Below, in pieces: positions 8,894-37,260 of a DNA stretch of 64,000 bases (position 1 is the first letter of the stretch; every line of letters begins with the position of its first letter). The notes below the pieces were generated by a model. The model was not told the origin of the DNA and searched no databases. It worked only from the letters and a program-made list of their open reading frames with translations. This DNA comes from Peptostreptococcus porci (GTDB taxonomy: Bacteria > Bacillota > Clostridia > Peptostreptococcales > Peptostreptococcaceae): the NCBI RefSeq assembly GCF_009695815.1, contig NZ_VUNE01000004.1:124001-188000 (forward strand). Direction: 5' to 3'. The position numbers and the translations under genes are program-made.

Positions 8894-10171
8894 TTATTTT
8901 TCAATATCGTCCAATTTGTCTGCTTTTAATATTGCATTTAGCAATACTGATGCACCTTCTGTACACTGCTCATCAGAAGAAAATTCTGGCTCACAATGAG
9001 ATAAACCATCTTTTGATACTACAAATATCATTGTTGTAGGCATCATATATGCCACGAACTGAGCATCATGTCCTGCACCTGAATGTATTGGCATATTTGC
9101 AACACCTATTTCGTCGGCTGACTGCTGAACAAAGTCTACCAAAGTCTTGTTCCAGTATACCGTATCTCTTTCCCAAGCCAGCTTGATTTCACACTTACAT
9201 CCAGCCCACTCCATAGTTGGAAGCTTCTTTACTATTTCACGAACGGCTTCCAATACCTTTGGATCTTCATGTCTTACATCAAGTGAAAACTCAACAAAAT
9301 CTGGAATTACAGTGTGTACACAAGGATGACAAACAATTTCGCCAGTTGTATAAACTAGCTCCGGTCTTCCCAGCTTGTCTATTTCGTCATGTAAATATAT
9401 AAGAGCCTGAGAAGCTGCATAAAGAGCATCTCTTCTCTTGTGCATTGGGAACGTACCCGCATGAGCAGCTTGTCCGCTAAAATTAATTCTATAGTTAAAC
9501 ATACCAAGAACACAATCTACAACTCCAATTGTCTTACCTTCATCTTCAAGAATTGGTCCCTGTTCTATATGAAGCTCGAAGTCACACATATATTCTTCAG
9601 GATTTAATCTGTTCTTCTTATCGCCCTTGTATTTGAAGTTTTCAAGCTTACTTCCAAATGTTGTAGCTCCATCTTCAACACTAACAGAGTTCATCATGTT
9701 TTCATACTTGAAGTTTTTCGCAATTTCCGGTGGAAGATAATCATTACATACTACACCAGAAGACATCATAGCTGGCGGATATAGAGATCCTTCTTCATTT
9801 GTCCATATCATTGCAACTATATCATGTCTATGAGGTATTTTTTCCGCCACGATTGTTTCCAATACTTCCATCGCACCTATTACACCTAGTATACCATCAT
9901 AATTACCACCATTTTTAACTGAATCACAGTGAGAACCTGTAACTATCTTCTTTAATCCAGGCTCTGTACCTGGCAAAGTCGCATACATATTCGCCATATC
10001 ATCGGTAGTTACGATAGCTCCTATTTTTTCCATTCTTTCTTTGAAGTAATCTCTTGCTTTTATAGCGTCATCACTTAGTGAATATCTTGTTATTCCACCA
10101 TGTCCAGCATCTCCAAATTTTGAAAAAGTATGTATCTTTTCAGACATTCTTTCTAAACTACATTTAATCAT
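8894..10171 (-). CDS. M20-family N-carbamoyl-beta-alanine amidohydrolase (beta-ureidopropionase-like)
   Basis: A 425-residue zinc hydrolase of the allantoate/N-carbamoyl-amino-acid amidohydrolase group. Visible metal-site motifs are GSHCDSVKNGGNYDG (His and Asp), WTNEEGSLYPP (Glu) and ELHIEQGPILE (His), plus GAGHDAQ near the C-terminus. The family hydrolyses N-carbamoyl compounds to amine, CO2 and NH3. Beside dihydropyrimidinase and PreT/PreA the most likely substrate is N-carbamoyl-beta-alanine, giving beta-alanine; an allantoate or N-carbamoyl-amino-acid substrate cannot be excluded by sequence. The start at 10171 is chosen because GGAAGGGGAA lies just upstream; an upstream ATG would give seven more residues. 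It is in line with the hydantoinase gene, 238 bases downstream of it. Confidence 0.85.
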   Translation of the reverse strand: MIKCSLERMSEKIHTFSKFGDAGHGGITRYSLSDDAIKARDYFKERMEKIGAIVTTDDMANMYATLPGTEPGLKKIVTGSHCDSVKNGGNYDGILGVIGAMEVLETIVAEKIPHRHDIVAMIWTNEEGSLYPPAMMSSGVVCNDYLPPEIAKNFKYENMMNSVSVEDGATTFGSKLENFKYKGDKKNRLNPEEYMCDFELHIEQGPILEDEGKTIGVVDCVLGMFNYRINFSGQAAHAGTFPMHKRRDALYAASQALIYLHDEIDKLGRPELVYTTGEIVCHPCVHTVIPDFVEFSLDVRHEDPKVLEAVREIVKKLPTMEWAGCKCEIKLAWERDTVYWNKTLVDFVQQSADEIGVANMPIHSGAGHDAQFVAYMMPTTMIFVVSKDGLSHCEPEFSSDEQCTEGASVLLNAILKADKLDDIEK

Positions 10172-10285
10172 GACAATTCCCCTTCCAAACAAGTTTCTTT
10201 AATATACTATCATTTTGTAAAATTATTTTCTAAAATCATTTTTCCTAATTATTTTTAAACCGTTTTATTAAAAATCATTTTTGTA

Positions 10286-10315
10286 TGTGGTAGAGCTTTC
10301 CACGACTCTACCACA
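10286..10315. terminator. Perfect hairpin between hydantoinase and amidohydrolase genes
   Basis: TGTGGTAGAG (10286-10295) and CTCTACCACA (10306-10315) form a perfect 10-bp stem with a 10-base loop. The T-run follows it only on the plus strand, while the flanking genes run on the minus strand. It may therefore act as a processing or partial termination element rather than a standard terminator. Confidence 0.5.
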
Positions 10316-10409
10316 ATTTTTTCCAAATTCTTACTTTCATTTTTATTTATTTTTGCATCACCCATAGGTGTTGCTCAACTTTTCACTTTTCTAAATTTTT
10401 CCTATAATC

Positions 10410-11789
10410 CTATAGTAAAATTGGTGCTCCTCTTCTGATTAGCTGACCTCTAGCCTCTTCACCAACATATTCTCCATTTTCAGCTACTAGCTCACCTCTA
10501 GAGAATGTTGCCACAGGATATCCCTTTACCTTAAAGCCTTCGTATGGTGTGTAATCTACATTTTCGTGTAAATTATCGACTGAAATAGTAACTTCCTTTT
10601 CTGGATCAAATACTACCAAATCGGCATCAGAACCTACTGCAATCGTTCCTTTCTTAGGATACATACCGAAGATCTTTGCAGGATTTGTAGATGTCAATTC
10701 AACAAATTTTCCAAGTGAAATATGGCCTTCATTCACTCCATAATGATGCATTAGAACCATTCTTCCCTCGATACCTGGTGCACCGTTAGGAATCTTTGTA
10801 AAATTATCTAATCCCATCTTTTTCTGTTCCATAAAGAATGGGCAGTGATCAGTCGCAACAGTCTGTAAGCCATCGTCTCTTAAAGCTTCCCATATTAATT
10901 CTTGATTGAATTTTTCTCTTAAAGGCGGACTCATTACATATTTGGCTCCCGCAAAATTTTCTTCCAAATAGTTATCTATTGATAACAACATATATTGCGG
11001 ACATGTTTCACCCATAGTCTTGAATCCTTGCTTTCTTGATTTTATTATTTCATCAGCTGCTTCTCTGTTACTTACGTGAACTATATAAATAGGAGCATCT
11101 ACCATTTCTGCTAATTTAACAGCTCTATTTGTAGCTTCAGCCTCGCACTTTTGAGGTCTTGATATAGCATGATAAACAGGATCAGTCTTTCCTTCAGACA
11201 ACAGCTGAGCAATTTTATAGTTAATTGAGTCATAGTTTTCTGCATGAACGCACACCAATCCGTTATTATCTCTCGCAATAGTCAATATTTCAAGCAATTC
11301 CTTATCAGTAAGTCTCATTCCATCGTAAACCATGAAAACCTTAAAGCTAGAAAATCCATCCTTTAATATTCTAGGCAATTCTTCTCTTACTGAATCGTCA
11401 AGTCTAGTAACACCCAAATGGAAGCCGTAGTCGATAACCGCTTTCCCATTAGCCTTTTCTTCCCACATTTCAATTGTTTCATATAGCCCTTTTCCACTTT
11501 GCTGCACAGCATAGTCTATTATTGAAGTCGTACCGCCGATTGCAGCAGCTTTTGTACCAGTTCTAAAATCATCGCTAGAGAAAGTTCCACCAAAAGGCAT
11601 ATCAAGATGCGTATGTACATCTATTCCACCAGGAAGCACATATTTACCTTTTGCATCATAAAAAATATCTGTATCAATATTTTTTGAAATATTTACTATC
11701 TTTCCGTCTTTAATTCCCAAATCAGCAATATAATTATCTCCGCTTGTTACTATATTTCCGTTTTTTATTACCAAATCATAATTAGACAT
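10410..11789 (-). CDS. hydA: Dihydropyrimidinase / D-hydantoinase
   Basis: A 459-residue amidohydrolase that opens the ring of dihydrouracil (or dihydrothymine) to the N-carbamoyl-beta-amino acid. The binuclear metal-site motifs are visible: GGIDVHTHLDMP, the carboxylated Lys in SSFKVFMVYDG, VCVHAENYD, PIYIVHVSN and VATDHCPF. Length is normal (about 460). ATG follows GGAGGAG. It directly precedes the M20 amidohydrolase that would take its product, and it is on the opposite strand to, but in the same cluster as, PreT/PreA. This fixes the pathway as reductive pyrimidine breakdown rather than hydantoin use; the latter remains possible as a side activity. Confidence 0.93.
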   Translation of the reverse strand: MSNYDLVIKNGNIVTSGDNYIADLGIKDGKIVNISKNIDTDIFYDAKGKYVLPGGIDVHTHLDMPFGGTFSSDDFRTGTKAAAIGGTTSIIDYAVQQSGKGLYETIEMWEEKANGKAVIDYGFHLGVTRLDDSVREELPRILKDGFSSFKVFMVYDGMRLTDKELLEILTIARDNNGLVCVHAENYDSINYKIAQLLSEGKTDPVYHAISRPQKCEAEATNRAVKLAEMVDAPIYIVHVSNREAADEIIKSRKQGFKTMGETCPQYMLLSIDNYLEENFAGAKYVMSPPLREKFNQELIWEALRDDGLQTVATDHCPFFMEQKKMGLDNFTKIPNGAPGIEGRMVLMHHYGVNEGHISLGKFVELTSTNPAKIFGMYPKKGTIAVGSDADLVVFDPEKEVTISVDNLHENVDYTPYEGFKVKGYPVATFSRGELVAENGEYVGEEARGQLIRRGAPILL

Positions 11790-12085
11790 AGCTCTCCTCC
11801 ATAATACTAAAACTTTAATACAAAATATAATTTTTTAAATTTTTTGTAAACTTTAACTGGTAAGTAAATAGACTTGTTTCATAGAAAACAATATTTATTA
11901 TAATACATAAATAATATATACTTTATTAATATACTATAATTATTAAATTGAAAATACCAACTTGATTAATTTTGATTGATTGATTAATAAACAAGATATC
12001 ACATAATTATTTTTGTGTCAATCATTTTTTTAATATTTTTATATTTTTTTGAAAATTTCAAATATATAATGTGCAGATATAGATA

Positions 12086-13675
12086 TCATCTATTAGATTT
12101 ACAATGCTTATTTATCAATCTATTCGCCGTACTTTGAGAAATATTTAAAACCTCTGCTAATTTGTACGAAGAATTATGTTTTTTGTAGTATTCTCTGACA
12201 ATATTTTTCTCTGCCAAATCCAATATACCCTTCAAATCTAAATTATCATTTTCAGAAATATTTAATACTATCTCACCAGAATCATTATAACTATCATGAC
12301 TTGTAATAATATTTTGTGGCAAATCATCTATTCTTATAGTTTCATCATGCGAATTGATTACAAGGTATTCAATCAAATGCTCCAACTCTCTTATATTTCC
12401 TGGCCATGAATAGTTTTCGAAATACTCCATCAAATTTGCTCCCATATTTACTTTAGAATCGTATTTTTTATTAAAATAATCAATAAAATGGTATACTAGC
12501 TTTGGTATATCCTCTTTTCTATTGACAAGCTTTGGCATCTCTAATTGCACCACGTTTAGCCTATAGTATAGGTCCTCTCTGAATTGCCCTCTCTCCACTA
12601 GCTCCGACAGATTTTTATTTGTTGCGACAATTATCCTAATATCAGCAATTTTTTTTGAGGTACTACCTATTGGCATATATTGCTTTTCTTGAACTAGTTC
12701 AAGTAGCTTGGACTGCAAATTTAAAGGTATCTCTCCAATTTCATCCAAAAATAGAGTACCGCCCTCTGCTTGCTCAACAAGACCCTTTTTTCCAGAATTT
12801 AAAGCCCCTGTAAACGCACCTTTTTTATATCCAAACAATTCGGACTCCATCAAATTTTCCGGTATTGTAGTACAGTTTATATTCACAAAAGGCTTTGATG
12901 ATCTATTGCTTATATTGTGTATATACTTTGCTAAAGATGTCTTTCCTGTACCAGATGCCCCTGTGATAAGTATATTTACATCCTTATCTACAAATCTATT
13001 TATCTTGGATATTATCTCGGTGATGCCCTTACTTTGAAAATTTCTAAAATTATTCTTCAATCCATCGCTTCTCAAATTGACATTTTTCTCTTTTTCAAGC
13101 TGAGACTTCGTATAATTTAGAGTATTGTACAATATTTCATTTTCTGTAATATCCTTGCAGTTTTCGACTACAAATAATACATTCCCTTCATCATCAACTA
13201 CAGGAGAAGATGTATTTAGTATTACCCTGCCAGTCCTAGTCTTTTGCTTATATGTAATTGTACGTTTTTCCTCCAATACCTTGTCAAACAGAAGCACATC
13301 GACATAACCATTTTCCAAAACATAGTTTACGTGTTTACCTATCAAATCCTCTCTTTTCACTCCGTAGTTTTTTTCGAAAATCTCATTGCAATAAATAGCT
13401 ATACCTTCTCCATCAGCTACAAAAATCTCATCAAAGGAATTATCCAATATATTCTTAAAAAAACCCTCCTCTATCTCATCATCGGAGACGATGTATAGAT
13501 CATTTTTCTTCATTGCCATATGGAATACATTGTAGCTTCCAAAATCGATATCATCAATATGCTTTTCATTTTTTATATTATCAAAAACATATTCAGCATA
13601 CACATTGTAGTCTAGTACAGTTTTGTCCTTTCCTGTCATTATTACCGGCTTTGTTACTATACCTTTAATGTTCAC
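12086..13675 (-). CDS. Sigma-54-dependent transcriptional activator (PAS, AAA+, Fis-type HTH)
   Basis: A 529-residue enhancer-binding protein. Residues 1-70 are an unassigned N-terminal sensor; about 72-180 is a PAS domain (ILDNSFDEIFVADGEGIAIY). The AAA+ domain at about 215-455 has Walker A GASGTGKT (239-246), the sigma-54-contact loop GAFTGA (286-291) and Walker B TLFLDEIGE. The C-terminus is a Fis-like helix-turn-helix (VLNISQSTANRLI). It starts with GTG behind GGGAGGG. Divergent to it is a plus-strand operon with a good -24/-12 promoter, so it is the likely activator of pyrimidine/beta-alanine catabolism. The effector could be a pyrimidine or pathway intermediate sensed by the N-terminus; this is inference. 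Confidence 0.93.
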   Translation of the reverse strand: MNIKGIVTKPVIMTGKDKTVLDYNVYAEYVFDNIKNEKHIDDIDFGSYNVFHMAMKKNDLYIVSDDEIEEGFFKNILDNSFDEIFVADGEGIAIYCNEIFEKNYGVKREDLIGKHVNYVLENGYVDVLLFDKVLEEKRTITYKQKTRTGRVILNTSSPVVDDEGNVLFVVENCKDITENEILYNTLNYTKSQLEKEKNVNLRSDGLKNNFRNFQSKGITEIISKINRFVDKDVNILITGASGTGKTSLAKYIHNISNRSSKPFVNINCTTIPENLMESELFGYKKGAFTGALNSGKKGLVEQAEGGTLFLDEIGEIPLNLQSKLLELVQEKQYMPIGSTSKKIADIRIIVATNKNLSELVERGQFREDLYYRLNVVQLEMPKLVNRKEDIPKLVYHFIDYFNKKYDSKVNMGANLMEYFENYSWPGNIRELEHLIEYLVINSHDETIRIDDLPQNIITSHDSYNDSGEIVLNISENDNLDLKGILDLAEKNIVREYYKKHNSSYKLAEVLNISQSTANRLINKHCKSNR

Positions 13676-13731
13676 AGCTATCCCTCCCTTTTTTTATCAT
13701 TATCCTGATCTTAATAATAGTATATGATACT

Positions 13732-13761
13732 AATATACTTTTCTAAACAATCTATTGTCAA
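13732..13761 (-). promoter_or_regulatory. SigmaA promoter of the sigma-54 activator gene
   Basis: On the minus strand, TTGACA (13756-13761) and TATATT (13732-13737) are spaced by 18 bases, about 57 bases before the GTG start. A palindrome (13761-13774) abuts and overlaps the -35 box by one base, suggesting autoregulation. Confidence 0.75.
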
Positions 13762-13774
13762 GTCAAAATTGACT
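13761..13774. promoter_or_regulatory. Candidate activator-binding palindrome, site 1
   Basis: AGTCAA-AA-TTGACT has perfect 6-bp arms. It is one of three related sites in the divergent region and touches the -35 box of the regulator promoter. Confidence 0.55.
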
Positions 13775-13867
13775 CAGTAATAAAATAAATATTATTAATA
13801 TTCGATCAAAGCTACTGTATTTGCAAACCACAAATAAATATCACAGACAAATATTGTAAACCTAGAA

Positions 13868-13930
13868 TCATAATAAGTCAATTTCGACTTGCATTCACTT
13901 TGTTTTTAAGTCACTATTGACTTATTATGA
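13868..13930. promoter_or_regulatory. Candidate enhancer (UAS) with two palindromes and a long inverted repeat
   Basis: Site 2 (13876-13889, AGTCAATTTCGACT) and site 3 (13909-13922, AGTCACTATTGACT) share the AGTCA-N4-TGACT pattern of site 1 and are 33 bases apart, about three helical turns. They are embedded in a perfect 14-bp inverted repeat, TCATAATAAGTCAA (13868-13881) and TTGACTTATTATGA (13917-13930). The block lies about 220-280 bases upstream of the sigma-54 promoter, a normal enhancer distance. Confidence 0.6.
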
Positions 13931-14150
13931 TATATTTTTATCTATGATTATCTATTTCAAATCCAATTTTGTAAATTTTTTCATATAATTATCCGATTAT
14001 TGAGAAAAAAATCGATTTTTTATGTAAATTTTTAAACACTCTATGGATTATTTTTTCACGAACTAAATGTTGAAATTAGGCACTTTTTAAATCTTAATAT
14101 CTCAAAATAAGTGAAAAAACATTTTCCGTTTTGTTAATATTTTTATTTAT

Positions 14151-14166
14151 TGGCATGGTAATTGCT
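14151..14166 (+). promoter_or_regulatory. Sigma-54 (-24/-12) promoter of the catabolic operon
   Basis: TGGCAT, then five bases, then TTGCT matches the sigma-54 consensus TGGCAC-N5-TTGCW with only the sixth base different. The predicted start near 14178 gives a leader of about 135 bases to the first plus-strand gene. Confidence 0.85.
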
Positions 14167-14313
14167 ATATTTTATTTATAAAAAATGGTAGGTTTATTTT
14201 TATAATTGACTAATTGATTTTATAACTTGATTTGATTTGATTAAAACTGGTGGTAGATGACATGATTTATTTTGATGAATTGATTGACATAATAAATTTC
14301 AGGAGGAAATTAC

Positions 14314-14805
14314 ATGAGTTTTTTACTTGCACTATCACTATCAACAGGTATTTGTTGCGCTATTTGGGCTTGGATATCTTCCATTCCATCGCTTCACTTG
14401 ATAACATGGATAGGCTTTGCCGGTTGCACAGCCTATTTCGCATCAGGTAAACATGGTTTAGAGGGTATTTCTGCGGCATTTTTCTCCACTATGTCTGGAG
14501 TATTTTCGGCAGCAGTCGCCCTATTTATTTCTAGCAAAATACCAACACCAGCGACTGCAATAATAATGACTGGTATAATTTCATGTACTATGTGCTTGAA
14601 ATCTGTCGCAAAACCATTTTGGTTTATCCCTGGAGCATTTATAGGTTGTTTTTCAACCTTTGCATATCTTTCATCAGGTGCGAATATACTTAGTGCTGAT
14701 ATAATACCTCATTTATTATCATTATCGGCTGGTACAATTTTAGCTTTATCTTGTGATAAAGGAGGAAATTTGTTATTTAGCCTTTTTGGCAAAAAAGAAA
14801 AATAA
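14314..14805 (+). CDS. DUF1097-like integral membrane protein
   Basis: A 163-residue hydrophobic protein with about five membrane segments, rich in Gly, Ser and Ala. The segment TWIGFAGCTAYFASGKHG resembles the DUF1097 (YcdZ-type) family as I remember it. Function of that family is not established. It is the first gene after the sigma-54 promoter, with AGGAGGAAA before the ATG. Its position suggests a role in uptake or export of a pathway compound (pyrimidine, beta-alanine or propionate), but that is only inference from context. No other transporter is in the cluster. Confidence 0.75.
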   Translation: MSFLLALSLSTGICCAIWAWISSIPSLHLITWIGFAGCTAYFASGKHGLEGISAAFFSTMSGVFSAAVALFISSKIPTPATAIIMTGIISCTMCLKSVAKPFWFIPGAFIGCFSTFAYLSSGANILSADIIPHLLSLSAGTILALSCDKGGNLLFSLFGKKEK

Positions 14806-14878
14806 AAGTATGGCTTGGATTTATTTTTACAAACCTAGCTAACTTTATCTTAAATAATTTGTTTTGGGAGGAAAAAAT

Positions 14879-16072
14879 ATGAAAAAAGCTCTTGAAGGAC
14901 TAAAGGTATTAGATTTAACACATGCTTATAACGGTCCTTTTTGTACAACACTATTAGCAGATAACGGTGCCGATGTTTTAAAAATCGAACCACCACATGG
15001 AGACCAATGTAGAACATGGGGTCCCATAGACGATAAAAGTGGCGAAAGTGGATTTTTTGCATTCTTGAATAGAAATAAGAAAGGCATCACATTGAATTTA
15101 AAAAATGAAGAAGCTAGGGAAATATTCTATGAATTGGTAAAGGACGCCGATGTTGTAGTTGAAAACTTTAGACCAGGTGTATCTAAAAAATTAAAAGTAG
15201 ATTATGACACAATTAAAGAAATCAACCCTGGTATCGTATATGCTTCTGGTTCAGGATTTGGTCAGACTGGACCTCTAAAAAATAGACCTTGCTATGATAT
15301 CGTAGCTCAGTCAATGGCGGGTATGGTAAACCTAACAGGATTTGAGGACTCAGTTCCAACAAAGGTCGGACCTTCTATCGCAGACAACGTTACTGGAATA
15401 TATCTATGTGTAGGCGTGATGATGGCACTTTACAACAAGGAAAAAACTGGTCTTGGGCAACAGGTTGACGTTTCGATGTTCGATACGATATTTACACTTC
15501 TTGAAAATGCAATCGTTATTCAGACAATGAAGGGCGTAACACCTCAAAGACAGGGAAATATCGACCCATCAATAGCACCTTTTGACATCTATGCCACTGT
15601 GGACGGATATGTTGCAATAGGTGTCGGAAATGATAGATTATTTAAGCTTTTCTGCGATTTGATAGAAAGACCTGATTTGCTTGATAATCCACTATATGCC
15701 ACAAATGACTTGAGAAGCCAGAACTATAGACCTGAGCTACAAAACATAATTGCAGAGTGGTGTTCAAACAAGAGCAAATATGATATTGAAAGTATGTGTG
15801 ATGAAATAGGAATTCCTTGTGGACCGGTTTTGGATATGAAAGAGGCAATTGATCATCCACATGTACAAGCTAGAGAAATGATGGTTCATCAGACGCACCC
15901 AACTATTGGAGAAATGTACTTCCAAGGTTGCCCTATAAAGCTTTCTAGAACACCTGGAAGCGTAGATACTCCTGCTCCTTTGTTGGGAGAATACAACGAA
16001 GAGTTCTACAAAAATGTTTTGGGATTCTCTGATGAAAAATACAAAAAATTGATAGAAAACGAAGTAATATAA
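14879..16072 (+). CDS. Family III (CaiB/BaiF) CoA-transferase, probably for beta-alanine
   Basis: A 397-residue family III CoA-transferase. Conserved elements include LEGLKVLDLTH, the CoA-site region IEPPHGDQCRTWGP, GFGQTGPL, and the catalytic Asp169 in SIADNVTGIY, equivalent to Asp169 of formyl-CoA transferase. Start at 14879 is chosen because GGGAGG lies eight bases upstream; an upstream TTG in frame overlaps that site. In this cluster the reaction needed is formation of beta-alanyl-CoA from beta-alanine with an acyl-CoA donor, and using propionyl-CoA would release propionate and close the cycle. Family is clear; substrate is inferred. Confidence 0.9.
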   Translation: MKKALEGLKVLDLTHAYNGPFCTTLLADNGADVLKIEPPHGDQCRTWGPIDDKSGESGFFAFLNRNKKGITLNLKNEEAREIFYELVKDADVVVENFRPGVSKKLKVDYDTIKEINPGIVYASGSGFGQTGPLKNRPCYDIVAQSMAGMVNLTGFEDSVPTKVGPSIADNVTGIYLCVGVMMALYNKEKTGLGQQVDVSMFDTIFTLLENAIVIQTMKGVTPQRQGNIDPSIAPFDIYATVDGYVAIGVGNDRLFKLFCDLIERPDLLDNPLYATNDLRSQNYRPELQNIIAEWCSNKSKYDIESMCDEIGIPCGPVLDMKEAIDHPHVQAREMMVHQTHPTIGEMYFQGCPIKLSRTPGSVDTPAPLLGEYNEEFYKNVLGFSDEKYKKLIENEVI

Positions 16073-16087
16073 ATGGGAGGTAAAAAA

Positions 16088-16543
16088 ATGAGAAAAGAGT
16101 CTGTTCTTTGCTATAATATGACAACTTTCGACGCAAATAATCTGGAAGGTATCGTTCCAGTTGGTAGACAATTTGATTTCTGGGGAGATGCCGAAACTGA
16201 ATTGATGATATTGAATGATGGAGATGAATCTCTTTGCTTGGGATACAAAAATGTAAAATTTTTCGACAGCATCTACGTCGGAGATCAAATGAATTTCAAG
16301 GCTACTTTACTTGAAGTTGGAAACTCTGCCAGAACTTGCAAAGTTCAATCCTTTAGAGTTGCAACGTCTGCAAAACGTCTTGGTGTCGATGGTGCCAAGG
16401 ATGGAGATATGGTTTACTACGATGAGCCTCAGCTAGTTGGAGAGGGTACTGTTACTCTTGTAGTTAGAAAGCACCTTCAACGTGGAAACCAACCAGACGG
16501 ACTTATTGAAGATCCATGGGCTGATATAGAAGAATACCTATAG
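16088..16543 (+). CDS. Beta-alanyl-CoA ammonia lyase-like hot-dog protein, subunit A
   Basis: A 151-residue hot-dog-fold protein. From memory of the Clostridium propionicum beta-alanyl-CoA ammonia lyase and the 3-aminobutyryl-CoA ammonia lyase of lysine fermentation, it shares WGDAETELM (32-40), DGDESLCLGYK (44-54), YVGDQM (63-68) and VGN-x3-TCK (77-85). It lacks the VNGAR segment of the single-chain enzymes (VPVGRQ here), while the next gene has it. The reaction would be beta-alanyl-CoA to acryloyl-CoA plus NH3. Start 16088 follows GGGAGGT; the ATG at 16073 overlaps that site. A plain thioesterase is the main alternative. Confidence 0.82.
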   Translation: MRKESVLCYNMTTFDANNLEGIVPVGRQFDFWGDAETELMILNDGDESLCLGYKNVKFFDSIYVGDQMNFKATLLEVGNSARTCKVQSFRVATSAKRLGVDGAKDGDMVYYDEPQLVGEGTVTLVVRKHLQRGNQPDGLIEDPWADIEEYL

Positions 16544-16560
16544 AATTGAGGAGGCGTGAA

Positions 16561-16950
16561 ATGAGAGATTTATTACCTGAAGAAAAAGAATTTAGAATGA
16601 GATATAGAATGTCTAGTAGAGATGTTTTCTATGGCGGCGGAATAGTAAATGGAGCGAGAACTATTACATATATTGGCGATTTGATGGATAGAGCTATGAC
16701 AAAGCTATACGGAAATGCTGGTCGTTGTGTGGAAATAGAAAATATAAGACTGTACAATCCTGTTCATGCAGGAGATTATATGGAATTTGTAGCAAGAGTC
16801 CTAGAATGTGATGACAAAACTGCAAAAATAGAATGTAGAGCATTTAAAATTGCTGTTTTACCAGAAGAACCGGAATTCCCAAGCTCTATTGATGTTTTGG
16901 AAAAACCAATTGTAGCAATAGAAAGCACAATGATTTACGAAAGCAAATAG
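16561..16950 (+). CDS. Beta-alanyl-CoA ammonia lyase-like hot-dog protein, subunit B
   Basis: A 129-residue paralogue of the preceding protein. It keeps the N-terminal motif RMSSRDVFYGGGIVNGAR (16-33), and the HAGDYMEF (69-76) and DVLEKPIV segments of the amino-acyl-CoA ammonia lyases. It lacks the TELM/DGD-SL region that subunit A retains. The two genes are 17 bases apart and each has its own AGGAGG-type site, so a heteromeric lyase is plausible. Alternatively the two act on different substrates (beta-alanyl-CoA and 3-aminoisobutyryl-CoA). ATG 16561 is chosen over an upstream in-frame TTG that overlaps the ribosome-binding site. Confidence 0.82.
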   Translation: MRDLLPEEKEFRMRYRMSSRDVFYGGGIVNGARTITYIGDLMDRAMTKLYGNAGRCVEIENIRLYNPVHAGDYMEFVARVLECDDKTAKIECRAFKIAVLPEEPEFPSSIDVLEKPIVAIESTMIYESK

Positions 16951-16962
16951 GAGGAAAAAGAC

Positions 16963-18195
16963 ATGAGTTTTGTTGATAAGATAAAATATGGTGAAAAAGC
17001 AGAACAGGATTTTAACATTAGAACGGCTATGGAAGAAGCAACTAGATGCCTACTTTGTGAAGATGCACCATGTAGCAAGGGGTGTCCAGCTGGAACAAAT
17101 CCTGGAAAATTTATAAGATCGATACGTCTAAGAAATTTCAAGGGCGCTGCTGAAACTATTAGAGAAAACAATATTTTGGGAGGCTGCTGCTCCCTAGTCT
17201 GTCCATACGGAAATCTTTGTGAAAAAGAATGTGCAAGATGTGGAATTGACGAACCTATAAAAATTGGTAAGCTACAAAAATTTGCAATAGATCATGAGAA
17301 GGAATCTGGAATGAAAATACTTAAAGCTCCAGAAAAAAAGATTGGTAAAAAAGTTGCTTGTATAGGATCTGGTCCTGCATCACTTGCTTGTGCCACTGAG
17401 CTGGCACTTGCTGGTATCGATGTGACTATATTTGAACAATTTGATCAACCAGGAGGTGTTTTGACTTACGGAATAACACCTTCCAGACTACCTCAAGAGG
17501 TTATAGATCACGATATACAACAGGTTAAAGATCTAGGAATCGAATTTAAAATGAACACTAGAATAGATGGCAAAGACGGTGTTGAAAAACTGCTTAAAGA
17601 ATTTGACTCTGTGTTCGTAGGTGTTGGTCTTTGGGATGCATCAGTTCCACAAATAAAAGGAATAGATGCCAAAGGTGTATACACTGCACAGGAATTTTTG
17701 AAAAATGCTAGAGAAAATAACGGAAATATAGAACTTGGCAATGACATATTAGTTATAGGTGGTGGTGATGTTGCGATGGACTGTGCATCTACATCAAAAC
17801 AGCTCGGAGCAAAGAACGTTGCAATAGTATACAGAAGAACAATTGAAGAAGCCCCTGCATATTATGAAGAAATCAGGTACATTCAAAACATGGGAGTCCC
17901 TATGATAACTAGATTTGCCCCTGAAGAAATCTTAACTGACTCAGATGGAAAAGTTGAAAAAATGTTGTTTAAATCATGGGATAATGTATCCGAATTATCT
18001 ATGAAAGCCGATACGGTTGTTTTCGCAATAGGTCAAAAAGCGAGCGACGACTATGCAAATATCAATCTACCGGACGGAGTATTTGCCAACGGAGACCTTG
18101 TAAATGGAGGACTTACAGTCGTACAGGCAGTCGCAGACGGCAAAAAATCTGCACTTGATATTATGAATTACCTTGGTGTAAAGGAGGCAAAATAA
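16963..18195 (+). CDS. preT: NAD-dependent dihydropyrimidine dehydrogenase subunit PreT
   Basis: A 410-residue flavoprotein that passes electrons between NADH and the PreA subunit. The N-terminal domain holds cysteines for two [4Fe-4S] clusters (C29, C32, C37, C41 and C76, C80, C86, C90). An FAD site with [10 protein letters not shown] follows at about residue 130, and an NAD(H) site [12 protein letters not shown] further on. This layout is that of PreT and the N-terminal part of mammalian dihydropyrimidine dehydrogenase; GltD-type proteins are similar, but PreA directly downstream decides the call. ATG follows AGGAGGAAAAAG. Confidence 0.95.
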
Positions 18196-18196
18196 C

Positions 18197-19450
18197 ATGG
18201 CATTAGTAAAAGACCTTTCGATAGATTTTTTAGGAGTTAGATGTGAAAATCCTTTCTTTCTTTCATCATCTCCTGTTTGTAGTAACTATGAAATGATAAA
18301 AAAAGCATTTGAAGCTGGATGGGCAGGAGTTTTCTATAAGACTCTTGGTATATTCATCCCTGATGAATGCTCTCCAAGATTTGATATAACAAGAAAAGAA
18401 AGTGCTGTATGGACAGGTTTCAAAAATATGGAAATGATATCAGACAAGCCTTTGGAAAAAAACTTGGAATATATCAGAAGACTAAAGGAAGAATTCCCAA
18501 CAAAGGTCATGGCTATAAGTATAATGGGAAGTGACGAAGAAGAGTGGAGAATATTGGCAAAAAAAGTTACAGAGGCTGGCGCAGACTTGATTGAATGTAA
18601 CTTCTCATGTCCACAGATGACTACTAGTGCAATGGGGTCTGATGTTGGACAAAATCCTGAATTGGTAGAAAGATACACTAGAGCTGTCGTAGAATCAACT
18701 CATTTACCAGTAATTGCAAAGATGACACCAAATATCGGTAACATGGAAATTCCTGCAATGGCTGCCATAAAAGGTGGAGCAAAAGGTATTGCTGCTATAA
18801 ATACAATAAAATCTATAACAAACATAGACATTGAAAATATGACTGCAATGCCTGTAGTAAATGCAAAATCTTCTATATCAGGATATTCAGGAGCTGCTGT
18901 TAAACCTATAGCGCTTCGCTTTATAACTCAGATGAAACAATATCCGGATCTTGCAGATGTACCTATCACTGGTATGGGTGGAATTGAAACATGGAGAGAT
19001 GCTCTTGAGTTTTTATTAGTTGGCTCTGGAAACCTTCAGGTTACAACAGCAGTTATGCAATATGGATATAGAATAGTTGAAGATTTAATCAGTGGGTTGT
19101 CTCACTTTATGGATGAACATGGTTTTGAAAAAGTTGAAGATTTAATAGGATTAGCTCTTCCAAATATAGTTCCAGCAGATGCTCTTGATCGTTCATTTAA
19201 AATAATTCCAAAAATAAATGAAGATTTATGCGTAGGCTGCGGAAGATGTTATGTATCATGTTTTGATGCTGCACATCAGGCCATAGATTGGGATGGAGAA
19301 AATAGAAAACCTATTATAAATGACAACTGTGTTGGATGTCATCTTTGCTTAAATGTATGTCCAGTTCTTGATTGTATACTACCTGGTGAAGTCAAATTTA
19401 AAGAAGGTAGAGAACCTCATACTATAGAATTAAAACACAAGTATGAATAA
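18197..19450 (+). CDS. preA: NAD-dependent dihydropyrimidine dehydrogenase subunit PreA
   Basis: A 417-residue FMN protein that reduces uracil or thymine to the dihydro form. The TIM-barrel (about 1-320) resembles dihydroorotate dehydrogenase, with ECNFSCPQM carrying the pyrimidine-site region and GMGGIETW the phosphate/FMN site. The C-terminus is a two-cluster ferredoxin domain: C345, C348, C351, C355 and C378, C381, C384, C388. The gene starts two bases after preT, with its AGGAGG inside the preT end. Length is normal. Confidence 0.96.
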
Positions 19451-19482
19451 TTCACATCCACTTAATTACAATTAAAAAAATA

Positions 19483-19514
19483 AATTAGGATGGAGTAAAT
19501 GCTCCATCCTAATT
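19483..19514 (+). other. Strong intra-operon hairpin between preA and the acyl-CoA dehydrogenase gene
   Basis: AATTAGGATGGAG (19483-19495) and CTCCATCCTAATT (19502-19514) form a perfect 13-bp stem with a six-base loop. There is no T-run after it on the plus strand (only ATCTATCTC). It may be a weak terminator, or an RNA-stability element that sets different levels for the upstream and downstream genes. Confidence 0.7.
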
Positions 19515-19590
19515 ATCTATCTCATAATGACATAGAATAGAAAAATCAATTTATATAATATTGCAAAATCATTAAAAGAGGAGGAATAAT

Positions 19591-20727
19591 ATGGATTTTA
19601 AATTTTCAGAAGCTGAATTAAAAATACAAGATATTGCCAGAAAGTTTGCAGAAAACGAAGTAGAACCATATGCTGAAGAAATTGATAAGAAATCAATATT
19701 TCCAGAGGATACCTTTAATAAAATGGTATCTTGTGGATTTACAGGTATTGGAACACCAGTAGAATATGGTGGTTCTGGTGGAGATGATATAGCAAAGATA
19801 ATAGTAGTATCTGAAATTGCTAAAAAATGTGCTGCTACAGCAGCTATTCTTTCTATTCATACAATTTTTTCAGATGTTATCAAGACATTCGGTAACAAAG
19901 AACAAAAAGAATTCTACCTTCCACAGGTTTCAAATGGTGGAAAAAAAGGTGCATTTGCTCTTACTGAACCAAATGCTGGTTCAGATGCTGCAGCTGTAAA
20001 AACTACAGCAATATCTGATGGTGATGACTACATAATAAATGGTGCAAAATGTTTTATAACTGGTGGAGCCCATGCAGATTATATGGTTGTATTTGCTTCA
20101 ACAGACTTGACAAAAGGTGTAAAAGGATTATCAGCAATAGTAGTTCCAAAAGGAACTGAAGGGTTTTCAATAGGTAAAACTGAAGATAAAATGGGAATTA
20201 GAGGCTCTGAAACATCTGAACTTATATTTGATAATTGTAGAGTTCCAAAGTCTAATCTTGTAGGTAAGGAAGGACAAGGCTTTAAAATAGCCATGGTCGC
20301 CCTTGATAGCGCTAGAATAGGAGTTGCTGCTCAAGCATTTGGTATAGCTGAAGGTGCCCTTGACCATGCAGTAAAATATATGAAAGAAAGAGTACAGTTC
20401 GGAAAACCGCTAACTGCTCTACAAGGTTTAAATTGGTATATTGCCGATATGAAAACAAGAATTGAATGTGCTAAATGGATGACATATAGAGCTGCTTGCC
20501 TTAAAAGAGATGGAGAAAAATTCACTATGGATGCTGCAATAGCAAAATACAATGCAGCCAATACTGCTATGTTTGTTACAAATCTCGCATTACAAATACA
20601 TGGTGGATATGGATACATGAAAGAATACCCTCTTGAAAGAATGTTTAGAGATGCAAAGATTACAGAAATATATGAAGGTACATCTGAAATACACAAATTA
20701 GTAATTTCAAGAGAAACATTAAAATAA
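19591..20727 (+). CDS. Acyl-CoA dehydrogenase, probable acryloyl-CoA reductase subunit
   Basis: A 378-residue FAD enzyme of the short-chain acyl-CoA dehydrogenase family. Visible are the FAD/substrate segments FALTEPNAGSDA and YIINGAKCFITGG, and the catalytic base Glu362 in EIYEGTSEIHKL. Together with EtfB and EtfA directly downstream it makes the three-gene set of the acryloyl-CoA reductase complex of Clostridium propionicum, or equally of butyryl-CoA dehydrogenase. No thiolase, crotonase or hydroxybutyryl-CoA dehydrogenase is nearby, and ammonia-lyase genes are. Reduction of acryloyl-CoA (and perhaps methacrylyl-CoA from thymine) is therefore favoured. Confidence 0.88.
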   Translation: MDFKFSEAELKIQDIARKFAENEVEPYAEEIDKKSIFPEDTFNKMVSCGFTGIGTPVEYGGSGGDDIAKIIVVSEIAKKCAATAAILSIHTIFSDVIKTFGNKEQKEFYLPQVSNGGKKGAFALTEPNAGSDAAAVKTTAISDGDDYIINGAKCFITGGAHADYMVVFASTDLTKGVKGLSAIVVPKGTEGFSIGKTEDKMGIRGSETSELIFDNCRVPKSNLVGKEGQGFKIAMVALDSARIGVAAQAFGIAEGALDHAVKYMKERVQFGKPLTALQGLNWYIADMKTRIECAKWMTYRAACLKRDGEKFTMDAAIAKYNAANTAMFVTNLALQIHGGYGYMKEYPLERMFRDAKITEIYEGTSEIHKLVISRETLK

Positions 20728-20739
20728 GGAGGTTGACCT

Positions 20740-21531
20740 ATGAAAATCATTGTTTGTCTAAAGCAAGTACCAGACACAAACGAAGTAAAAATAAATAAAG
20801 AAACAGGTACATTAATTCGTGAAGGCGTGCCAAGTATAATAAATCCTGACGATATGAATGCTCTTGAAGAAGCTCTAAAAATCAAAGACAATACAAAATC
20901 AGAAGTAATTGTAGTGTCTATGGGACCTCCTCAGGCTAAAAATGCACTAAAAGAAGCATTGGCAATGGGAGCAGACAAAGCATATTTAGTAAGTGACAGA
21001 GCCTTTGGTGGCTCGGATACTTGGGCAACTGCAACCATACTATCATCAGCCATTGAAAAAATAGGCGATTATGATATTATTTTATGTGGTAGACAAGCCA
21101 TAGATGGTGATACTGCTCAGGTTGGCCCAGAAATTGCCGAATTTTTAAATATACCTCAAATAACTTATGCAAAAGATGTTAAAATCAATGATAAAAAAGT
21201 ACAAGTAACTAGATATACTGAATTTGGAGATTTAGTATATAAATCTGAAATGCCAGTATTGTTAACAGCTATAAAAGATTTAAATACACCTAGATATCCT
21301 GAAATTAAAAAAATATATGAAGCATATTCTAATGATGACAATATAGAAATATTAGGGCTTAATGATTTAGATGTAGATACAACACAAATTGGTTTAAAAG
21401 GTTCACCTACGAATGTATATAAATCTTTTGTTCCTGTAAAAGAAAAACATTTTGAAATGATAAGTGGGCTAACAGATAAAGAAAAAGCATCAAATTTATT
21501 TGATAAATTAATAGAATTAAAACTAGTATAG
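20740..21531 (+). CDS. etfB: Electron transfer flavoprotein subunit beta
   Basis: A 263-residue protein with the EtfB N-terminus (MKIIVCLKQVPDTNEVKIN), AMGADKAYLVSDRAFGGSD, and the family signature GRQAIDGDTAQVGPE. It carries electrons between NADH and the acyl-CoA dehydrogenase. Twelve bases separate it from each neighbour gene, with AGGAGGTTG before the ATG. Whether the complex bifurcates electrons to ferredoxin cannot be decided by eye. Confidence 0.95.
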   Translation: MKIIVCLKQVPDTNEVKINKETGTLIREGVPSIINPDDMNALEEALKIKDNTKSEVIVVSMGPPQAKNALKEALAMGADKAYLVSDRAFGGSDTWATATILSSAIEKIGDYDIILCGRQAIDGDTAQVGPEIAEFLNIPQITYAKDVKINDKKVQVTRYTEFGDLVYKSEMPVLLTAIKDLNTPRYPEIKKIYEAYSNDDNIEILGLNDLDVDTTQIGLKGSPTNVYKSFVPVKEKHFEMISGLTDKEKASNLFDKLIELKLV

Positions 21532-21543
21532 AGGAGGATACCG

Positions 21544-22572
21544 ATGAGAGCAAAAGTTAATCAAGATATTAATATTTCAGACTACAACGGTGTCTGGGTT
21601 ATTAGTGAACAAAATTTAGGTAAACTACATAATGTTACCTTAGAATTAATTGGGGAAGGAAGAAAACTTGCCGATAAAATAAATAAAGAAGTTTCTGTAG
21701 TAGTTTTGGGAGAAAATATAGAAAATATAGTAAAACAACTTGAAGAATATCCAGTTGATAATATAATATGCATAGATAAACCTGAATTAAAACACTACAA
21801 CACAGATATATACGCAAATTGTATTGATGAAATAATAAAAGAAATGAAACCTGAAATTGTGCTTTTCGGTGCAACTTCAATAGGAAGAGATTTAGCTCCT
21901 AGAGTTTCTGCAAAAGTAGGAACAGGTCTAACTGCAGATTGTACATCCCTTGAAATAGATGATATAGATGGAAAACTTTTACAAACAAGACCGGCATTTG
22001 GTGGAAATTTAATGGCTACAATTATATGCCCTAAAAATAGACCTCAAATGTCTACAGTAAGACCTGGTGTAATGCAAAAGGCACAAAAAATAGAAAATAA
22101 AATTGCAAAAATAATAATTCCTAATATAGATAAAAATAATCTGATATCCAAAGTTATGTTTAAAGAACTTTTAATAAATGATAAACCGAGGGTTAATCTT
22201 CAAGATGCAAAAATTATAGTATCAGGAGGTAGAGGATTAAAAACTCCAGAAGGGTTCAAACTTATAGAAGAACTTGCTGAAGCATTAGGTGGAGTAGTAG
22301 GAGCTTCAAGAGCTGCAGTAGATTCAGGATGGATAGATCATAGCCATCAAGTAGGTCAAACTGGAACAACAGTCAGACCGGAACTTTACATTGCATGTGG
22401 AATATCTGGTGCTATTCAACACCTAGCTGGTATGAGTGAATCAAAAACTATAGTAGCTATAAATAGTGACCCTAATGCACCTATTTTTAAAGTTTGTGAC
22501 TATGGTATCGTTGGAGATTTGTATAAAATAATCCCAGAACTTATTGAACAGGCAAAAAATAATAAAAGATAA
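21544..22572 (+). CDS. etfA: Electron transfer flavoprotein subunit alpha
   Basis: A 342-residue EtfA. The C-terminal FAD-binding domain is clear: SGGRGLKTPEGF, GASRAAVDSGWI, HQVGQTG, ACGISGAIQHLAGM, and the closing INSDPNAPIF. It is the last gene of the plus-strand operon and is followed by a strong terminator. Length is normal for versions without an N-terminal ferredoxin domain. Confidence 0.95.
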   Translation: MRAKVNQDINISDYNGVWVISEQNLGKLHNVTLELIGEGRKLADKINKEVSVVVLGENIENIVKQLEEYPVDNIICIDKPELKHYNTDIYANCIDEIIKEMKPEIVLFGATSIGRDLAPRVSAKVGTGLTADCTSLEIDDIDGKLLQTRPAFGGNLMATIICPKNRPQMSTVRPGVMQKAQKIENKIAKIIIPNIDKNNLISKVMFKELLINDKPRVNLQDAKIIVSGGRGLKTPEGFKLIEELAEALGGVVGASRAAVDSGWIDHSHQVGQTGTTVRPELYIACGISGAIQHLAGMSESKTIVAINSDPNAPIFKVCDYGIVGDLYKIIPELIEQAKNNKR

Positions 22573-34627: not shown

Positions 34628-35413
34628 CTATTGAATATATACAAATTTGTCTTTTGGTTCATCAGCTTTCGTGAATTTTACATTAAAAATAATTGGGAGT
34701 CTTTCATAATTATATTCCCTATAATTATTCTCTTTAATCTCCCCTTCGACAATATACCACTGACCTCTTTTCAGATTGTGCATATCCTTATCTTCGTAAA
34801 TAAATCCACAGGTTTGAAGGTCAGCCATACAGCACAACATACCCATTCTTCCAATTACAGCAAAATCACCATTGTTCTGTTTGTCATCAAGCACACAACA
34901 CAAGAGTCTGAATTTTGTGCCCTTATATTTTTTCCAATCTAATATAGAATCATAGTACCATTTCATGTACTTTACATCCGTTATGTCTATATAGTCTTTT
35001 CCTCTTTCCTTTTTGTATACCGTCCTCTTTATCTTTTCAGTTCTGTTTATTCCGCTTGAAACACTTGTAATTCCAGCCTTTGACTCAGTTTTTATAACAC
35101 TTGATGATTGAGACGTCGATAACATTGCCACAACAAGATCCTTCGACATATAAAAAACCATCATCAAGGGTATTATCACGATAAAATACCTACAAAGATT
35201 ATTCATATGTCTTGGTTTAAACAATTTAGATACTGAGAATACTGCAATAGCTATCAATATGACTGCAGAAATCGCCAAAATAGTATTAAATTTCGGATGA
35301 ACAAACAAGTTCAGTCTCCCGTTTTGTAATCCCACTAGGATGAGTGCAGAAAGAAAGAGCTCTATCAGAATCTGTATCAGTATCTCTAAATTAATTCTAT
35401 TAATTTTATTCAT
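34628..35413 (-). CDS. DUF1980 / TIGR03943 family membrane protein (YcgQ-like)
   Basis: A 261-residue protein with about three N-terminal membrane segments and a soluble C-terminal domain. The motif GRMGMLCCMADLQTCGF matches the family's R-x-x-(I/L)-CC-x-AD-x-Q pattern. The family is usually paired with a DUF318 permease, and here that permease is encoded immediately upstream with an 11-base gap. From its neighbours a role in metal (zinc) handling is likely. The start is the ATG at 35413 behind GGGGGGGTGAG; a GTG at 35419 overlaps the site. Confidence 0.85.
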   Translation of the reverse strand: MNKINRINLEILIQILIELFLSALILVGLQNGRLNLFVHPKFNTILAISAVILIAIAVFSVSKLFKPRHMNNLCRYFIVIIPLMMVFYMSKDLVVAMLSTSQSSSVIKTESKAGITSVSSGINRTEKIKRTVYKKERGKDYIDITDVKYMKWYYDSILDWKKYKGTKFRLLCCVLDDKQNNGDFAVIGRMGMLCCMADLQTCGFIYEDKDMHNLKRGQWYIVEGEIKENNYREYNYERLPIIFNVKFTKADEPKDKFVYIQ

Positions 35414-35424
35414 ACTCACCCCCC

Positions 35425-37020: not shown

Positions 37021-37095
37021 GTTTTTACCACCTCATTTATCATAAAAATCCCCAATTATAATACTACATAAAAAAACTTAGTTTTTGATTAATTC

Positions 37096-37110
37096 CGCAA
37101 AAGATTTGCG
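37096..37110. promoter_or_regulatory. Dyad between divergent metal genes
   Basis: CGCAAA-AGA-TTTGCG is a perfect 6-bp inverted repeat, six bases upstream of the -35 box of the COG0523 gene. The octamers GCAAAAGA and ATTTGCGA within it also both occur in the znuA leader (42989-43019), so it may be an operator for a shared regulator. Confidence 0.4.
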
Positions 37111-37116
37111 ATTTTA

Positions 37117-37146
37117 TTGAAAGTAATTCATGAAATAATGTATAAT
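37117..37146 (+). promoter_or_regulatory. SigmaA promoter of the COG0523 gene
   Basis: TTGAAA (37117-37122) and TATAAT (37141-37146) are separated by 18 bases, 114 bases before the start codon. Confidence 0.7.
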
Positions 37147-37182
37147 ATATTATTGGTATCGATATATTATTGGTGTTGATAT
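37146..37182. repeat. 17-base-period tandem repeat in the COG0523 leader
   Basis: TATATTATTGGTATCGATAT (37146-37165) is followed in register by TATATTATTGGTGTTGATAT (37163-37182); the two differ at two bases. They begin at the last base of the -10 box and cover the transcription start, as tandem operator sites would. Confidence 0.6.
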
Positions 37183-37260
37183 TTTATCACTGAAACATTC
37201 AACATTATGGAAATACCAAAATAAAATGCACTACAGCTATGTTATATGAGGAGGAAAACT

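Follow-up and report, generated by a model that had tools for sequence, protein, structure and literature searches.

A Peptostreptococcus porci gene cluster predicted to reduce uracil to propionate through beta-alanyl-CoA and acryloyl-CoA

The window analysed here, 64,000 nucleotides of the Peptostreptococcus porci contig NZ_VUNE01000004.1 (positions 124,001 to 188,000; contig C6 of the 2.16 Mb genome), contains a locus at positions 8894 to 22572 that joins genes for pyrimidine breakdown to genes for beta-alanine fermentation. With a probability of roughly five in six, it is a sigma-54-controlled catabolic locus for the complete reduction of uracil to propionate via beta-alanyl-coenzyme A (CoA) and acryloyl-CoA, which would act as a Stickland-type reductive branch. 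An earlier note, made from the DNA letters, had proposed that a pathway from uracil to beta-alanine and a pathway from beta-alanine to propionate are joined here. As genomics, the proposal is supported: the genes that it listed are open and intact, lie where it had placed them and belong to the families it had named, and the joint between the two pathways recurs in relatives. Two further genes belong to the locus and were absent from that list, a PAS/sigma-54 activator (12086-13675, minus strand) and a DUF1097 membrane protein (14314-14805, plus strand).

In the proposed route, PreTA would reduce uracil to dihydrouracil, dihydropyrimidinase would convert dihydrouracil to 3-ureidopropionate, and the M20 hydrolase would split 3-ureidopropionate into beta-alanine, NH3 and CO2. 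The family III CoA-transferase would turn beta-alanine into beta-alanyl-CoA, with the CoA probably coming from propionyl-CoA or acryloyl-CoA. An asymmetric lyase made of the hot-dog proteins A and B would then release a second NH3 to form acryloyl-CoA, which AcrC together with the electron transfer flavoprotein (ETF) would reduce to propionyl-CoA. The balance worked out in this analysis would be uracil + 2 H2O + 4 [H] -> propionate + CO2 + 2 NH3, with two electrons entering at PreTA and two at AcrC-ETF. No ATP would be spent on activation, because the CoA-transferase would recycle CoA to beta-alanine. The same enzymes might convert thymine to isobutyrate. We infer the substrates of the CoA-transferase and the lyase, the CoA donor, and the role of the pathway as an electron sink. 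The features of the locus are as follows.

8894..10192, minus strand: M20 N-carbamoyl amidohydrolase, probable beta-ureidopropionase; ATG at about 10171
10410..11789, minus strand: dihydropyrimidinase (hydA)
12086..13675, minus strand: PAS-domain sigma-54 activator, probable regulator of the locus
13760..13923: three AAGTCA-N4-TGACTT palindromes (starts 13760, 13875 and 13908), one exact, the other two with a single mismatch; candidate binding sites for the activator
14151..14166, plus strand: putative sigma-54 -24/-12 element TGGCATGGTAATTGCT, one mismatch to the consensus
14314..14805, plus strand: DUF1097 (PF06496) six-helix membrane protein, candidate uptake protein
14879..16072, plus strand: family III (CaiB/BaiF) CoA-transferase, proposed beta-alanine CoA-transferase
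16088..16543, plus strand: hot-dog A, proposed catalytic subunit of beta-alanyl-CoA ammonia lyase
16546..16950, plus strand: hot-dog B, proposed non-catalytic partner; ATG at about 16561
16963..18195, plus strand: PreT, predicted NAD(P)H/FAD subunit of dihydropyrimidine dehydrogenase
18197..19450, plus strand: PreA, predicted uracil-reducing FMN subunit
19591..20727, plus strand: AcrC, predicted acryloyl-CoA reductase (propionyl-CoA dehydrogenase) subunit
20740..21531, plus strand: EtfB
21544..22572, plus strand: EtfA

The nine plus-strand genes follow one another from DUF1097 to etfA, opposite the activator, dihydropyrimidinase and M20 genes on the minus strand. The starts of the M20, CoA-transferase, hot-dog A and hot-dog B genes were refined by ribosome-binding sites. 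Intergenic gaps do not exceed 73 bases from DUF1097 through preA, and the gaps within acrC-etfB-etfA are 12 bases.

PreA scored above the cut-off of the NF006183 equivalog model (607.7 bits against 335). In an alignment with pig dihydropyrimidine dehydrogenase (DPD), with positions counted by hand, it matched all seven of the residues that we take to form the uracil/pyrimidine active site (Asn609, Glu611, Asn668, Ser670, Cys671, Asn736 and Thr737). PreT, whose gene adjoins preA, combines the Pfam domains Fer4_20 (DPD domain II) and Pyr_redox_2, and reached no NCBIfam equivalog cut-off. The dihydropyrimidinase exceeded the TIGR02033 cut-off (601 bits against 393) and stayed under that of the allantoinase model TIGR03178 (278.5 against 357.9). 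The M20 protein passed the hydantase model TIGR01879 (338 bits against 204) and also a broad "allantoate amidohydrolase" subfamily model (449 against 399), and N-carbamoyl-beta-alanine amidohydrolase (8c46) and beta-alanine synthase (1r3n) are among its relatives of solved structure. It belongs to the right carbamoylase family and is a probable beta-ureidopropionase.

The DUF1097 protein matches PF06496 with 99.6 bits, and its AlphaFold2 model (predicted local distance difference test score, pLDDT, 81) has six helices. A fold search with this model against the PDB gave no match at E<=0.001. NCS1 is a permease family that includes uracil carriers. Among the 49 related loci introduced below, an NCS1 permease is encoded between hydA and the carbamoylase gene (upr) in seven and a DUF1097 protein in 12, and the two never occur together. 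The DUF1097 protein may substitute for a uracil permease. A passage on A. hadrus describes ycdZ (DUF1097) upstream of preTA, with ycdZ, preTA and hydA all carried (PMC11036815).

The terminal reductase is indicated by AcrC, which exceeded the cut-off of the acryloyl-CoA reductase model NF042972 (712.5 bits against 640); two other proteins of the same genome matched this model with 470 and 446 bits. In Anaerotignum neopropionicum (L112), all three Acr subunits were over their cut-offs beside pyrimidine (Pyd) genes, including AcrA with 693 bits against 600 and AcrB with 518 against 475. Both results uphold the suggestion, made before this analysis, of an Etf-linked acryloyl-CoA reductase. The CoA-transferase is a clear member of family III (PF02515, 438 bits), unlike the family I propionate CoA-transferase, and its closest solved relative is YfdE (4hl6).

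In two other places of the same genome, a family III CoA-transferase is grouped with a pair of dehydratase subunits and an acyl-CoA dehydrogenase (ACD) (G000 C1:223370-229039 and C4:332673-337391), and in a third such a CoA-transferase is paired with one 2-hydroxyacyl-CoA dehydratase subunit (C4:190219-192756). We take the CoA-transferase, dehydratase and ACD sets to be Stickland reductive branches. Because of these sets, the module in the window resembles such a branch, in which a family III CoA-transferase is followed by an elimination and an ACD, except that an ammonia lyase replaces the 2-hydroxyacyl-CoA dehydratase and that the acceptor derives from a nucleobase.

A passage from a yeast screen describes A. 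propionicum Act as active on beta-alanine and Pct as only marginally so (PMC13067684). A recombinant beta-alanine CoA-transferase, ACT, is given as 42 kDa in a passage that does not name its source organism (PMC13042692). Act would be a family III enzyme, with the 42 kDa fitting the size of that family. Two loci contain a second ACD within the module, with both proteins under the AcrC cut-off (L072:15108-16247, 470 bits; L093:8632-9774, 413 bits), and in Clostridium sp. OS1-26 (L110) the CoA-transferase is split into two frames of 306 and 91 residues, with matches from 8702 and 9597.

The best relative of hot-dog A in the PDB is 4mtu, the beta-alanyl-CoA ammonia lyase Acl2 of C. propionicum (phmmer 1.6e-19; profile 2.1e-28), which is also the best solved relative of hot-dog B (5.6e-8). 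The GDxxTE motif of Acl2 is kept in 56 of 58 hot-dog A records, and the remaining two are an artefact of three residues and a broken piece of 82 residues. The glutamate of this motif is presumably the catalytic residue of Acl2. At its position, hot-dog B has arginine in 46 and lysine in two of the 48 sequences checked. These were aligned on their own and represent 48 of 55 records, 90-199 residues long and including the B halves of A+B fusions; five CoA-transferase fusions and two records of 13 residues were excluded. The two hot-dog proteins form a single open frame in 13 of 49 loci. In five of 49 (L074, L075, L077, L080 and L081), hot-dog B is fused in frame to the CoA-transferase, giving proteins of 522-554 residues, and four of these five fusions come from Lachnoanaerobaculum or a Lachnospiraceae oral taxon. 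Because hot-dog B lacks the glutamate and both kinds of fusion occur, A and B probably form one asymmetric lyase complex that works with the CoA-transferase, with A as its catalytic and B as its non-catalytic subunit.

For one natural A+B fusion (L097), an AlphaFold model calculated from 11 sequences had a mean pLDDT of 68.7 and a predicted template modelling score of 0.70, with the GDxxTE segment under 50. Its best fold matches were double hot-dog thioesterases, and 4mtu matched over one half. The enzymes BvaB1 and BvaB2 of beta-valine breakdown were considered as a model for the hot-dog pair and rejected, since the available descriptions present them as enoyl-CoA hydratase relatives that work with a CoA ligase. 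A scan of viral contigs with hot-dog A found no relative. Extra copies of hot-dog A or B stand beside the CoA-transferase gene in eight loci (L079, L080, L086, L088, L098, L099, L107 and L116), and one copy in L086 is broken.

The description of the cluster as regulated is supported by its predicted control elements: the sigma-54 activator, the -24/-12 element and the three palindromes. The activator contains Sigma54_activat and PAS domains over the Pfam cut-offs, and its best NCBIfam model is PrdR (376 bits, under the cut-off of 795). The divergent intergenic region is 638 bases long. Three palindromes occurred in none of 2000 mononucleotide shuffles of this region (mean 0.015), a figure that flatters because the motif was read off the same region; the whole window holds four palindromes. 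A more independent sign comes from the close relatives L060, L123, L129 and L130, which likewise have a TGGCAY-N5-TTGCW element and one or more palindromes upstream of DUF1097. A promoter scan of the whole window that allowed two mismatches found 30 matches where 19.4 were expected, which is little above chance, so lone matches elsewhere mean little. A scan for sigma-70 promoters stayed at the level of chance, with 69 matches against 65.7 expected.

A profile scan of a GTDB-based genome collection with hot-dog A yielded 49 named loci (L numbers; genomes carry G numbers). The CoA-transferase and both hot-dog genes are present in 45 of them, and 40 also have an ACD match and both ETF genes. The fetched flank contains one or more pyrimidine genes in 24 loci (in L098 this is a hydA-like match of 49%), at least two in 22, and all ten key genes, four for pyrimidine breakdown and six of the module, in 11. 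These linkage counts are minimum values: of the 25 loci in which no pyrimidine gene appeared, 11 span less than 18 kb, and L091 was counted with one pyrimidine gene although hydA, preA and preT follow further on, apparently on the same contig (L125, of genome G315). The near-copy loci L084/L085 and L075/L077 are not independent. Gene order and transporters vary by lineage, among them Lachnoanaerobaculum, Anaerotignum neopropionicum, Clostridium carboxidivorans, C. thermopalmarium, Eubacterium barkeri and Pseudoramibacter. The search of other genomes for the same gene set, which the earlier note had named as a check, thus found the pathway joint in many genera and in differing orders.

Within the genus, Peptostreptococcus sp. 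D1 (L071) carries the same locus with 87-100% protein identity, with the M20 gene cut by the contig end. Nine Peptostreptococcus genomes contain a hot-dog A orthologue in four cases (G000, G001, G005 and G007) and PreA over its cut-off in six. In L129 (G001) and L130 (G005), the activator-hydA-upr genes stand opposite DUF1097-preT-preA, an arrangement that the window shares. Downstream of preA, both L130 and L123 (G008) carry an amino acid permease gene; the L123 contig begins just before DUF1097. The fetched stretches of these sister-species Pyd loci (L123, L129 and L130) contain no CoA-transferase, lyase or reductase genes; G001 and G005 carry the CoA-transferase/lyase/Acr module elsewhere in the genome (L061 and L062). 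The locus of the window has its CoA-transferase and lyase genes between DUF1097 and preT, with acrC-etfBA placed after preA. In G004 (L124:7613-9415), an N-truncated upr abuts an N-truncated preA and the intervening genes are gone, as after a deletion, so that the locus looks decayed.

A tree of the CoA-transferases, calculated by a quick method from 48 rows, places the window in one clade (100% support in the Shimodaira-Hasegawa-like approximate likelihood ratio test) and P. anaerobius in the other. Pyrimidine linkage requires 11 changes on this tree against a shuffled mean of 16.5, with at least six forced by the starred branches; the "unlinked" label arises in part from short stretches, and the number of changes drops to 10 once L091 is corrected and to 8 when seven short rows and L062 are left out. 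The label changes and the split between clades indicate that pyrimidine linkage has probably been gained or lost repeatedly, and that Peptostreptococcus holds two different versions of the module.

Several observations weigh against a dedicated uracil-to-propionate locus. Neither hot-dog protein reaches any NCBIfam cut-off, and the CoA-transferase is under the cut-off of every NCBIfam model that it matched. EtfB is under the cut-offs of NF042971 (AcrB, 297 against 475) and NF040731 (366 against 445), and EtfA is under that of NF042970 (AcrA, 395 against 600); by these scores the ETF of the window is related to AcrAB but of another ETF type. The preA and acrC genes are 140 bases apart, with a hairpin of 13 pairs between them whose T tail is that of the minus strand. 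Elsewhere, the genome encodes one family I CoA-transferase frame of 529 residues and a PF00860 nucleobase permease, so that CoA transfer and uptake need not depend on the locus. In a survey of 391 Clostridia genomes, the co-occurrence counts speak for the uracil-to-propionate reading and some single genomes against it. A hot-dog A orthologue (E <= 1e-46) was present in seven, PreA over its cut-off in 22 and both in six. PreA was thus found in six of the seven hot-dog A genomes and in 16 of the 384 others (Fisher p 1e-7), and AcrC over its cut-off was found in five genomes, four of them among the seven (Fisher 2e-7); these values overstate independence, since five of the seven come from one family. 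AcrC over its cut-off is missing from three genomes that contain hot-dog A and PreA (G178, G320 and G402), G334 has the module without PreA, and G024 has AcrC over its cut-off and no hot-dog A. Among the named loci, L073 contains the lyase pair and Pyd genes and no CoA-transferase or reductase in its stretch. Conversely, the fetched stretch lacks any Pyd gene in 25 of the 49 loci, which means that the module also occurs on its own.

The solitary modules fit an explanation in which the shared locus serves mainly for nitrogen: uracil would be a nitrogen source, beta-alanine of any origin would be disposed of, and the pathway would be real but a minor electron sink. C. chromiireducens is described in a passage as growing on uracil as its sole nitrogen source (PMC7332683). 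A branched-chain-type amino acid transporter is encoded in nine of the 25 unlinked loci, yet also in five of the 24 linked ones (a sixth match is weak, at 25%). A dedicated AcrC-ETF reduction would be superfluous for the release of nitrogen, and the organism keeps its two other CoA-transferase III-dehydratase-ACD sets. We consider a mainly nitrogen-supplying role unlikely, at about the odds of one suit in a pack of cards.

Another explanation is that the lyase acts on a different 3-aminoacyl-CoA, either 3-aminoisobutyryl-CoA on the way from thymine to isobutyrate or the lysine-derived 3-aminobutyryl-CoA. The two hot-dog proteins score 61.8 and 65.7 bits on the Kal model of lysine fermentation (NF052388), and the duplicated hot-dog genes of some loci perhaps serve a second substrate such as 3-aminoisobutyryl-CoA. 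These scores do not reach the cut-off of 160, the AcrC is of the acryloyl-CoA type, and the hot-dog proteins of the window are only distant relatives of Kal with other gene neighbours. As a control, we collected 20 regions, each 13-20 kb long, that surround distant hot-dog matches (28-38% identity; presumed Kal-like, unclassified) from 20 of the 25 genomes with such matches. None of the 20 held a pyrimidine gene, against 22 of 49 named loci with at least two (Fisher 8e-5). The Kal reading was rejected on the cut-off and on this control. A lyase devoted to another 3-aminoacyl-CoA is improbable, and thymine may be an additional substrate of the uracil pathway.

2,3-Diaminopropionate ammonia lyase marks the reductive uric-acid pathway, and the genome contains no such enzyme over the cut-off (best 41.7 against 532), on which ground we rejected the reading that PreA and the hydrolases serve uric acid or hydantoins instead of uracil. 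This very improbable reading draws on the M20 match to the "allantoate amidohydrolase" model and on C. difficile UacX, considered by its description alone, which a passage calls a PydA homologue (PMC12507026), and it is opposed by the equivalog score and conserved DPD residues of PreA and by the NCS1 permease between hydA and upr in other loci.

The preferred reading, reduction of uracil to propionate, relates the locus to known systems. As in Pyd (PreTA/PydA, PydB and PydC), genes for the three steps to beta-alanine, the last of them for a probable ureidopropionase, lie in one locus. Published descriptions include a ferredoxin-dependent PydA and a Pyd cluster that takes beta-alanine onward via the aminotransferase PydD and malonic semialdehyde enzymes (PMC7332683), whereas the route predicted here leads to acryloyl-CoA and propionyl-CoA. 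With the beta-alanine branch of Clostridium (Anaerotignum) propionicum (Act, Acl1/Acl2 and AcrCBA), the module shares a CoA-transferase, a hot-dog ammonia lyase and an AcrC-type reductase. It differs in a lyase of two unlike subunits, one without the putative catalytic glutamate, in an ETF of another type, and in its junction with uracil breakdown. The locus is best read as a novel combination of two pathways already known, and the predicted make-up of its lyase is unusual.

Reductive pyrimidine breakdown was found decades ago in Clostridium uracilicum, according to a passage in PMC11332652. In the titles and passages of open-licence PMC papers, we found no natural pathway that connects the breakdown of uracil with beta-alanyl-CoA or acryloyl-CoA; the sole open PMC paper found to combine uracil, beta-alanyl-CoA and acryloyl-CoA is a yeast engineering study (PMC13067684). 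Subscription papers and preprints were outside this scope, and the novelty of the uracil-propionate junction is therefore provisional. A 2026 survey of gut Clostridia is described as having screened three propionate routes, succinate, acrylate and propanediol, with none from beta-alanine (PMC13106387).

If the preferred reading is true, a nucleobase would be both nitrogen source and electron dump, RNA turnover would be tied to redox balance and nitrogen release, and anaerobes would have an extra source of propionate that ordinary screens miss. The locus also bears on the bacterial handling of 5-fluorouracil, which A. hadrus turns into the ureido acid, reportedly stopping there (PMC11036815). 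We speculate, at slightly less than even odds, that the locus represents an undescribed use of nucleobases in Clostridia. Uracil, perhaps also thymine, would be a four-electron Stickland-type acceptor yielding propionate (isobutyrate), and a complex of CoA-transferase and asymmetric lyase would channel the reactive acryloyl-CoA. The system would have been assembled more than once by the addition of a beta-alanine module to resident pyrimidine loci. This speculation predicts the conversion of 5-fluorouracil beyond fluoro-beta-alanine. The lyase pair and its CoA-transferase fusions may be of use in making acrylyl compounds.

Outside the locus, positions 34628-38220 of the window hold a gene for a fusion of a CobW-type GTPase domain with an ArsP_1 permease, which lies between those for a DUF1980 protein and a His-rich CobW GTPase. 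Genes resembling those of a metal ABC transporter and of Fur were noticed nearby by eye.

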